Assembly: GCA_003553485.1 (NCBI GenBank) | Contig: PWEJ01000119.1 | Location: 1 to 64,000 of the forward strand | Reading direction: 5' to 3' | DNA length: 64,000 nt | From: Halanaerobiaceae bacterium | GTDB taxonomy: Bacteria; Bacillota; Halanaerobiia; Halanaerobiales; Halarsenatibacteraceae | Part shown: piece by piece, positions 10,742-13,399 of the stretch | Layout of the letters: every line of letters begins with the position of its first letter | Position numbering within the stretch: the first letter of the stretch is position 1 | Notes under the pieces: generated by a model | What the model was told of the DNA's origin: nothing | The model's database searches: none | What the model saw: the letters and a program-made list of their open reading frames with translations, nothing else | Translations under genes and position numbers: made by a program

Positions 10742-12295
10742 TCAAGAGTCAGGCTGAAGATCCTGCCTTTGAAAGATTTGCTCTAAATCATTTTTCCTGT
10801 TGAAGGTATATTCTAAGCCATATTTCTTCTGGATTAGATTAGCTGCAATTCTGCCAGATTCATATATAGTGGGCAAACCGCTACCGGGATTAGTCCCTCC
10901 TCCAACCAACCACATATTATTAAACTCCTCGAATTTATTTCGTGGTCTAAATACGAGCATCTGATTTAAGTTATGTCCTAAATTAAAGGTTGCTCCATAA
11001 CCAACTCTCATATCATCTCGCCAGTCTAAGGGGGTAATGACCTTCTCAAAAATTATTTTATTTCTGATATTATCATCATCTAATTTTTCAGCCAGTTTAT
11101 CTAAAATTAAGTCTCTGAATTTATCTTTTTCTTCTTGCCAGTTAATGGTAGCTTTTAAGTTTGCTACAGGGACTAATATATAAAGAGCTGTCTTTCCTTC
11201 AGGAGCAACTTCAGGATCTGTTATGGAAGCGTTTTGCACGTAAAAAGAGGGGTCCTGAGATAGTTTTTTCTCTGATTCAATTTCTAAAAAGTTTTTCTCA
11301 TAATCCTTAGCTATAAAGACATTATTGTGTTCAAGTTCATTATATTCATCATCAAGTCCTAAATAGAGCATGAAAGTCGAGCAGGAATAGTTTTTACTGT
11401 CTAAATTTTCATCGGTGTACTTTTTTCTGCTCTTTGGAGGAAATAAATTTTTCATGGACCAGGCAAAATCTGAATTCATGATTATTTCAGCAAAGCTTTT
11501 TTCCTGGCCGTCTGTTAGTCTAAGACCAGTGGCAGATTTGCCTGTTAATTTAACCTCTGCCACCTCAGAATTTAAATTAATTGTTCCCCCTAATTCTGTG
11601 AAAACCCTGGCCATAGCCTGAGCTAACTGGTTTAAACCTCCTATTACATGATAAACACCCCAGCGATATTCAATAAAGGGTAAAATACTAAACATGGATG
11701 GACAATTAAAGGGCGACATGCCTAAATACTTCGACTGAAAGGTAAAACCAACTTTAACTCTATCATCAGAAAAAAATCTGCCTAATTCATCCCAGAGGCT
11801 TCTCTGGGGGTTTAACACTGTTAATAATTTTATAATATCAAAATTGATTATATCAAAGATTGAAGTATAGGGCCGCTGCAAAACCGGTAAAGTATAACGC
11901 ATTTTTTTTGCATTATCCTTCATATAATTATCATAGCCCCTGGCATCACCGGGATTTATATTCTCTATTGAATTTTTGAAGTCCTCTGGATCAATAGAGG
12001 GTTTTAATTTTTTTCCATCTGCAAAGATCAACTGATAAAAGGGATCCATTAATTTTAAGTCTACATAATCATGAAGATCATGGCCTGTTTCGGCAAAGAT
12101 TTCTTCTAAGATAAAACTCATCATCAAAAAGGTTGGACCAATATCAAAAATAAAGCCCTCCTCTTCAATCCAACCATTTCTTCCTCCAACTTTATCCCGG
12201 GCCTCAAAAATTTCAACATTAAAACCCTTTGCCGCTAATAACATCCCGGCAGCCAGGCCTCCAGGGCCTGCTCCAATAATTCCAATATCCTTCAC
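10742..12295 (-). CDS. Phytoene desaturase-family carotenoid oxidoreductase
   Basis: This 517-residue flavoprotein has the CrtI-type architecture. The N-terminus binds FAD ([17 protein letters not shown], then [13 protein letters not shown]), and the C-terminus has the matching signature [18 protein letters not shown]. Family members introduce double bonds into, or isomerise, C40 or C30 carotenoids. Substrate, and whether it acts as CrtI, CrtN or a related oxidase, cannot be decided here; no phytoene synthase gene lies in the window. The start is a GTG behind AAAGGAGGAG. It is transcribed divergently from a cobalamin-binding regulator 159 bases away, a layout like the crt loci governed by CarH/LitR photoreceptors. 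Confidence 0.9.
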
Positions 12296-12454
12296 TTTAA
12301 ACTCCTCCTTTAGTTCTGTTGTGGAAAAATTTTGCTAAATAAGCAATTATAGAAGTGAAACTATAGAATTTTATTTCAATATGTGATAGAATATCATTAA
12401 AGGGAAAAATAATTAAACACAAATTCTACTTCAAAAAGAAATGAGGTTATATAA
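12296..12454. promoter_or_regulatory. Divergent control region between the desaturase and the B12-type regulator
   Basis: A TATAAT on the minus strand (12346-12351) lies about 50 bases before the desaturase start, with no good -35 hexamer at the right distance. Imperfect copies of a TAGAAT-like motif recur: TATAGAA (12348-12354), TATAGAATT (12362-12370), GATAGAATAT (12385-12394) on the plus strand, and an inverted copy AAATTCTAC at 12421-12429. One copy overlaps the -10. These are candidate operator elements only; their spacing (14, 23 bases) is irregular. Confidence 0.4.
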
Positions 12455-13399
12455 ATGGGCGATTTTGGTAAAAGACTTAAAAAGTTAAGGCAAAACCATA
12501 ATTTAAGACAGGTGGACTTAGCCGATATTTTGGGTTTAGCTCAAACCACAATAACTAACTATGAGAATAACGACCGCTTTCCGGGACAAAAAACTTTAAA
12601 AGAGATTGCTGATTACTTCAATGTATCTCTTGACTATCTACTGGGTAGAACAAGCAATCCCACTAGAATAGATCATTTCCTCAAACAAGAAAGACCTGAA
12701 TTACAATCAGCAGAGGACTTTTTAGCTGACGAAAAGGTGAAAAGGTTTTTTGAATTGTTGAGCAATAGATCTAGAAGGGATATTTTTCAGTTCCTTAAAG
12801 ACAATTATTCTGACTTTGATTCTCCTCAGACCTATGAAGATATTTATTCTAATTTATTCACCCCTATTCTTTATTCTGTAGGAAATTTATGGGAAACCAA
12901 TAAATTTACTATTGAAGATGAAAGACATTATTCCTCGACTATCAATGATTTGATGGCTCAATTGCGACTGTTTTTTCCTAAAAATGGCTTTGCCAATGAA
13001 TATTCTGATAATAAAAGCCCTGATAGTGCTAAAAGAATGCTGGCTTTAACAGCTCCAGGAGAACACCATAATATTGGCATTCAAATGATAACAGATACTT
13101 TCACCTTAAAGGGATGGCATACTCATTATTTACCCAGTGAATTACCAGTTGAAAATATAAGAAACTTTATCCTAGAGGGGCAGATAGATTTACTTGCAAT
13201 TTCTGCCACCATGTCTAGCAACGTTAATTCCCTTAAAAATATCATCTCTTTTCTGCGGAATGATAGAAAGACGAAAAACATCAAAATCTTAGTTGGGGGA
13301 CAACCCTTTAACGTTTATCCAGACCTATGGCAGGAGATTGGAGCTGATTTCTGGGCCCGTGATGTAAGTGAGACAATCAAAATAATTAATATAATTTAA
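12455..13399 (+). CDS. XRE-HTH / cobalamin-binding (CarH-like) regulator
   Basis: The 314-residue protein joins three parts. Residues 4-65 form an XRE/Cro-type helix-turn-helix (LRQVDLADILGLAQTTITNY). Residues about 85-180 look like the four-helix cobalamin cap, with W146 followed nine residues later by E156; the CarH W-x9-E-H motif reads W-x9-E-R-H here. Residues about 190-314 form a B12-binding Rossmann domain with all three family motifs: E203-H-H205-N-I-G208 (E-x-H-x-x-G, H205 being the expected lower axial ligand), S250-A-T252, and G281-G282. Known CarH/LitR light sensors have a MerR-type DNA-binding domain, so the XRE domain is unusual. Position, divergent from a carotenoid gene, supports light- or B12-dependent control of pigment. 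Domain calls are from sequence; light sensing is inferred. Ribosome site GAGGT precedes the ATG. Confidence 0.88.
   Translation: MGDFGKRLKKLRQNHNLRQVDLADILGLAQTTITNYENNDRFPGQKTLKEIADYFNVSLDYLLGRTSNPTRIDHFLKQERPELQSAEDFLADEKVKRFFELLSNRSRRDIFQFLKDNYSDFDSPQTYEDIYSNLFTPILYSVGNLWETNKFTIEDERHYSSTINDLMAQLRLFFPKNGFANEYSDNKSPDSAKRMLALTAPGEHHNIGIQMITDTFTLKGWHTHYLPSELPVENIRNFILEGQIDLLAISATMSSNVNSLKNIISFLRNDRKTKNIKILVGGQPFNVYPDLWQEIGADFWARDVSETIKIINII

Follow-up and report, generated by a model that had tools for sequence, protein, structure and literature searches.

Among B12 photoreceptors that act as repressors, CarH has been studied best, and it serves as an optogenetic tool. The locus studied here lies in a 64,000-nucleotide stretch of a contig from a Halanaerobiaceae bacterium (hereafter the window), where the original prediction had placed an XRE-type regulator with a CarH-like module, sensing light or B12 and controlling a divergent carotenoid-type desaturase gene in an anaerobe. 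This raises the question of whether a light-type cobalamin domain (CBD) has been joined to a DNA-binding fold other than that of CarH and, if so, what it senses and which genes it controls.

Domain architecture and predicted fold

The ATG of the regulator gene (Table 1) has a GAGG ribosome-binding site 8 nt 5' of it. Taking HTH_3 above its curated cut-off as the mark of an XRE domain, the encoded protein has one (residues 8-62, E 7.6e-15, 55.1 bits against a cut-off of 23), followed in the Pfam scan by B12-binding_2 (residues 119-170, E 9.4e-5, exactly at the 23-bit cut-off) and B12-binding (residues 195-304, E 5.1e-18, 65.5 bits). The AlphaFold2 model (pLDDT 86) consists of an XRE bundle (helices 4-14, 19-26, 30-37 and 45-54), a lower-confidence linker, a four-helix cap (helices 93-104, 107-117, 124-147 and 153-171) and a Rossmann domain. 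When this model was compared with the PDB by Foldseek, full-length TtCarH (5C8D) ranked first (E 2.8e-9), followed by photocobilins (8J2Y, E 4.5e-9), with CtMerR ninth (TMt 0.76). The Pfam scan gave no match to a MerR-type N-terminal domain, which places the protein outside CarH/LitR, and it scored 30 bits against a cut-off of 400 for the CarH equivalog (NCBIfam NF052513, TransRegCarH). The predicted build, an XRE HTH with a CarH-like cap and B12 domain, was thus upheld by the order of the Pfam matches and by the structure prediction proposed as a check, which returned TtCarH as the best fold match; HTH_3 without a MerR match agrees with the claim of a non-MerR DNA-binding fold, and every residue named in the cap and Rossmann motifs (W146-x9-E156, E203-x-H205-x-x-G208, S250-A-T252 and G281-G282) is present.

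Table 1. Features of the regulator locus and of related loci; positions are those of the window unless another locus is named.
Feature	Position	Strand	Basis or remark
XRE-CBD regulator gene, 314 aa	12455..13399	+	Intact ORF, ATG start; Pfam HTH_3, B12-binding_2, B12-binding
XRE/HTH_3 DNA-binding domain, residues 4-65	12464..12649	+	Pfam, model helices
Four-helix cap, about residues 95-172, G143-x-x-W146-x9-E156-R157-H158	12737..12970	+	B12-binding_2 match, model helices
Cobalamin Rossmann domain, residues 194-314	13034..13396	+	B12-binding match, motif spacings, alignment of 21 CBDs
Rossmann motifs: G202-E203-x-H205-x-x-G208, P227xxxP231 (GxxxP position), S250-A-T252, G281-G282			
Predicted operator TTATTTCAATATGTGATAG, 19-bp pseudo-palindrome between divergent genes	12371..12389	.	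Gibbs motif, matrix
Extended -10-like element TGATAGAAT of regulator gene, overlapping operator	12384..12392	+	Read from sequence, predicted
Divergent phytoene-desaturase-family gene (crtI_fam), candidate target	10742..12295	-	TIGR02734
Operator-like site before unlinked DICT gene, own genome	G000:C31:23350-23368 (L151 9351-9369)		Matrix score 13.7
Standalone DICT gene, own genome	L151 9450-10004		
G009 neighbour: chemotaxis operon headed by CheY-like gene	L039 1003-8882		Names read from sequence
G031 neighbour: standalone DICT gene			
G055 and G147a neighbours: cofG-cofH-DICT			
G057 neighbours: ECF transporter S component and DICT			
G063 neighbour: methyl-accepting chemotaxis-type protein			Name read from sequence
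G147b neighbours: no clear theme			
cofG-cofH followed by standalone DICT	L119 10539-13160; L121 6353-8968; L154 8900-11562; L156 9015-11653; L157 6735-9402		
DICT-adjacent ECF-type loci, genomes without cofG	L120 8884-9465; L153 2390-2968; L155 7772-8338; L158 9128-9736		
XRE-PAS-HD-GYP genes	L055 7491-8618; L056 7750-8877; L057 7470-8642		
Photocobilin-like CBD family 1 (about 350 aa)	L042, L044, L046, L054		
Photocobilin-like CBD family 2 (about 370-430 aa)	L045, L047, L049-L051, L053, L058		

Like CarH/LitR proteins, the regulator is a single chain of DNA-binding domain, four-helix cap and cobalamin Rossmann domain; it shares with them the ExHx2G-x41-SxT-GG motif and the cap Trp and Glu and, in the window genome, stands beside a carotenoid-type gene. 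It differs in having XRE for MerR, Wx9ER for Wx9EH, E147 for H132, and a predicted palindromic operator where CarH, which forms AdoCbl-dependent tetramers that dissociate in light, uses 11-bp direct repeats. XRE one-component regulators (XRE-cupin, and XRE-PAS-HD-GYP of the same order) resemble it in HTH type, C-terminal sensory module and palindromic, probably autoregulatory operator, and differ in their sensor domains. The XRE-PAS-HD-GYP proteins have an XRE domain of this subtype, with 62-65% identity over 66 aa, joined to PAS and HD-GYP, as confirmed by Pfam for the L056 protein, and an operator-like site lies 5' of two of the three genes (scores 15.2 and 11.0). The literature searched contained no XRE regulator that carries a cobalamin domain; HTH fusions of light CBDs have been listed in general, XRE being unnamed in the main text (PMC11796333), so that pairing a light CBD with an HTH unlike that of CarH is not wholly without precedent.

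Relatives of the regulator and the light signature

A search across genomes for this domain combination had been suggested beforehand. We looked for relatives with a protein search in 38 genomes of the order and with profile searches in 59 genomes of the class and in a phylum sample of 398 genomes. Six genomes (G009, G031, G055, G057, G063 and G147) yielded seven more full-length XRE-CBD proteins, two of them (G147a and G147b) in G147; they are 30-42% identical to the window protein, and identity among all eight was 30-49%. A protein-pattern scan of genome contigs returned only an unrelated XRE.

Light-responsive CBDs carry the signature GxxW, EH, GxxH and GxxxP (SignatureFinder, PMC11796333), and CarH homologues have been defined by ExHx2Gx41SxV/Tx22-27GG together with Wx9EH (PMC8156234). 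In the alignment of CBDs the window protein possesses GxxW (G143-N-L-W146) and GxxH (G202-E-H-H205), while two of the four elements are lost: EH reads E156-R157, with a His one residue later (H158), and the GxxxP position reads P227-S-E-L-P231, its Gly missing. The cap, W146-x9-E156-R157, accordingly lacks the Wx9EH that is found in G009, G055, G057 and G147a, and these four members keep the entire light signature; G031 has ER in place of EH, and G147b and G063 have lost more of the signature than the window protein. The G208-x41-S250 spacing is that of the published CarH motif, and T252-x28-GG is one above the published 22-27, as in five of the eight family members. The cap differences from CarH that had been pointed out earlier (Arg157 after Glu, His158 next, Glu147 after Trp) were all confirmed.

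The upper His of CarH, H132, is absent from all eight XRE-CBD members. Since CtMerR, SasPcob and AbDPcob are light-responsive without an equivalent of H132 (PMC11796333), its absence alone is no argument against light sensing. The missing residue would predict a light state other than bis-His, with dissociation perhaps absent; monomerisation is prevented in CarH without the upper His (PMC10442372), and CtMerR shows no monomerisation under anaerobic illumination (PMC11796333). CtMerR (8JBS/8JBT) resembles the window protein in its CBD, by family profile (82 bits) and fold, and in having no H132 equivalent (Arg in CtMerR, Glu in the window protein), and is unlike it in keeping EH and GxxxP and in its MerR-type domain. 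Judged by the incomplete Wx9EH and the missing GxxxP Gly, light sensing appears less certain in the window copy than in its relatives. Members with a complete light signature thus favour the idea of light or B12 sensing, whereas for the window copy itself the original prediction was too confident about light.

Phylogeny of the XRE-CBD family

In a maximum-likelihood tree of 54 CBDs, the eight XRE-CBD proteins formed one clade (92/99; a single clade in 93% of bootstrap trees) nested within a large group of Wx9EH light-type CBDs. Because the full-length relatives form one clade, the XRE fusion is an old architecture, rare but recurrent, and no accident of assembly. The photocobilin-like CBDs of the same order fall within the same Wx9EH group. 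Photocobilins and photoglobin-CBD proteins, like the regulator, fuse a light-type CBD to another module and match its fold (8J2Y, E 4.5e-9), but join it to a bilin-binding globin or to an enzyme domain and not to an HTH. The order is rich in two such further families of CBD proteins (Table 1), light-type with Wx9EH and with N-termini unmatched in Pfam.

The tree also bears on whether an HTH might here have been joined to an orphan corrinoid methyl carrier that senses methyl-transfer metabolism. The family CBD profile does score a methyltransferase-type domain as high as a photoreceptor (4jgi 82 bits, CtMerR 82 bits), but the XRE-CBD clade was split from the corrinoid methyltransferase proteins at 100/100, the Trp-x9-Glu cap, present here as W146 and E156, is absent from those proteins, and no methyltransferase gene was recognised beside the regulator. 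We rejected this reading on the tree and regard it as very improbable indeed.

Within the clade, the window protein groups weakly (95/47) with the signature-poor G063 and G147b proteins, and its branch measures 1.2 against 0.5-0.9 in signature-bearing members, which together suggest that its function may have changed. The change could have gone as far as in Myxococcus xanthus CarA, which likewise joins a DNA-binding domain (MerR in that case) to a B12-type fold without a complete Wx9EH and acts independently of B12, an independence for which the missing Wx9EH is held largely responsible (PMC8156234). The B12 fold would then serve for dimerisation or for protein docking, and a partner, for example a DICT-domain protein, would supply the signal. 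The long branch and the signature-poor company would suit such a regulator. Nevertheless, E-x-H-x2-G, S-x-T and GG are fully kept in the window protein, as are W146 and E156, and ER for EH also occurs in G031, which lies on a different branch and adjoins a DICT gene; we consider a B12-independent regulator of this sort distinctly unlikely.

A conserved operator-like palindrome

Gibbs sampling of the upstream regions of six members gave a common palindrome with a score of 72, compared with 49.2 +/- 1.9 (maximum 53.4) for 25 sets of shuffled regions, which were run with 12 restarts against 40 for the real set. In leave-one-genome-out scans (13-20 kb per locus) the best site was in the regulator upstream region in all five genomes. 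One clear operator-like site was found in the window and two or more each in G009, G031, G055, G057 and G147a; the upstream regions of G147b and G063 had no clear site. With a matrix built without the window's own sites, 12371-12389 was the top site of the 64-kb window (score 12.8). The second-best, 11850-11868 (11.4), lies inside the desaturase gene and may be chance. The two best sites in a scan of 134 kb of the regulator's own genome were those upstream of the regulator (12.8) and of an unlinked gene for a standalone DICT domain (13.7, against a chance expectation of 0.002 per 200 bp).

The predicted operator overlaps an extended -10-like element, which the automatic promoter scan did not list, and operator-like sites in several relatives also overlap an extended -10 (TGTGnTATAAT-like); the site before the DICT gene sits between TTGAAT and TATAAA hexamers 17 bp apart. 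Such an overlap would be expected of a repressor, and it also means that the motif may in part reflect promoter sequence. Promoter sequence is unlikely to be the whole explanation, since DICT/cofG upstream regions of six genomes without a detected XRE-CBD protein scored 1.3 or less. The 2.84-Mb genome has a single exact copy of the core TATNNCANNNTGTGNTA, at 12371-12389, a count to be read with the facts that the pattern was designed with this site in view and that background controls also gave about one per genome. A wider regulon was considered and set aside, since the other exact operator matches in G009, G031, G055, G057 and G147 were mostly in coding sequence or in a repeated element.

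The site before the DICT gene is also relevant to a regulator that senses the level of cobalamin and has no light role. Such a protein would repress when any cobalamin is bound and let go when it is scarce, so that the desaturase and DICT genes would track B12 supply. Its appeal is that the His205 motif and Rossmann core are intact while two light-signature elements are lost, and loss of EH and GxxxP would permit a looser adenosyl pocket. However, W146 and E156, the residues that in CarH touch the adenosyl group, are retained, the operator-like site persists upstream of the DICT gene, and no B12 uptake or synthesis gene was recognised among the ORFs adjoining the regulator. On balance we find a pure cobalamin-level sensor rather unlikely, though the strongest of the alternatives.

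Neighbouring genes: desaturase, DICT and FO synthase

The divergent gene belongs to the phytoene desaturase family (480 bits against a cut-off of 238 for TIGR02734), no equivalog model assigning the exact reaction, and its start codon is about 75 bp from the predicted operator. The position of that operator between the two genes fits the local control proposed originally, and control of the shared intergenic region is likely; the emphasis on carotenoids was too specific, the carotenoid-type neighbour being unique to the window among the eight XRE-CBD loci. Carotenoid control as the function of the family was rejected, with no crtI-like gene at the other loci (by blastp for three and by ORF reading for the rest). 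The G009 regulator gene is divergent from a chemotaxis operon, with two or three operator-like sites, making B12 or light control of motility possible there.

A DICT gene adjoins four of the eight XRE-CBD loci, and two of these four also have FO synthase genes, whose CofG and CofH products score above curated cut-offs. A role of the DICT domain in light response has been predicted (PMC8612252). Searches for CofG gave 4 of 59 class genomes and 3 of 398 genomes in the phylum sample; these amount to five distinct genomes, and in all five a standalone DICT gene lies within about 2 kb of cofG. In G057, G001, G014 and G025, which lack CofG, the DICT gene adjoins a gene for an ECF S-type (substrate-binding) subunit (Pfam-confirmed in G057, by sequence likeness in the other three). 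Most simply read, these arrangements mean that DICT depends on FO, either synthesised or taken up: DICT may bind FO, and the ECF subunit beside it is a candidate for the import of FO or of a related deazaflavin. A use of FO for photolyase was rejected, no FAD_binding_7 match being present in four cofG-bearing genomes of the class. The literature searched held no paper joining DICT with FO synthase and no DICT ligand; the DICT model matched no known fold convincingly (best E 9e-4, TMq mostly 0.3-0.6, PPK/PLD-like and TrmB-like).

A model for the regulator and its family

The architecture, fold, family, motif losses and conserved operator-like motif described above were established by computation. 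From them we infer the cobalamin form, light as the signal, repression as the sign of control, and the targets. The reading we prefer, to which we give an even chance, is that the window protein is a cobalamin-dependent repressor which descends from a light-sensing lineage and whose upper-face chemistry has altered. As a one-component repressor with a small, local regulon, it would bind as XRE dimers to a 19-bp palindrome (ATATCACAnnnTGTGATAT type) that lies between the regulator and desaturase genes and overlaps the extended -10 of the regulator promoter. A cobalamin, probably adenosylcobalamin, would sit in the C-terminal module, with His205 as the lower ligand and Trp146 and Glu156 towards the upper face. 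Once the adenosyl group is lost, most probably through light, the modules would pack differently and let go of the DNA, and the regulator, the desaturase gene and the unlinked gene for the DICT domain would be induced.

Light-released repression would be the ancestral and family function, and in members with the full signature light as the switch appears well supported. In the window copy the upper face is changed, with no His after Glu, no His at the H132 position and no GxxxP Gly, so its sensitivity or light-state structure probably differs from that of CarH; a light response is possible, and whether light is still the switch is about evenly poised. The host is presumably anaerobic and probably uses corrinoids, since its genome encodes several other corrinoid-type proteins; a PduO-type adenosyltransferase, the only type sought, was not found in it.

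A broader proposal, which we put forward tentatively and rate somewhat below an even chance, is that XRE-CBD proteins are the B12 photoreceptors of a second, so far unrecognised light-sensing module in anaerobic Firmicutes-type bacteria, in which DICT would be an FO-binding photosensor, supplied by cofG-cofH or by ECF import, and the window copy a derived member that still controls the unlinked DICT gene and has recruited the desaturase. If this is true, a vitamin-based light sensor governs the supply of a second one. The link between DICT and FO synthase offers a concrete ligand hypothesis for the DICT sensory domain. The XRE-CBD branch, with its compact XRE fold and short palindromic operator, would give the sensor used by CarH a second DNA-binding format, and its members with and without EH and GxxxP provide a natural series on which residues make a B12 domain light-sensitive, drawn from anaerobes, where CarH's light response is altered.
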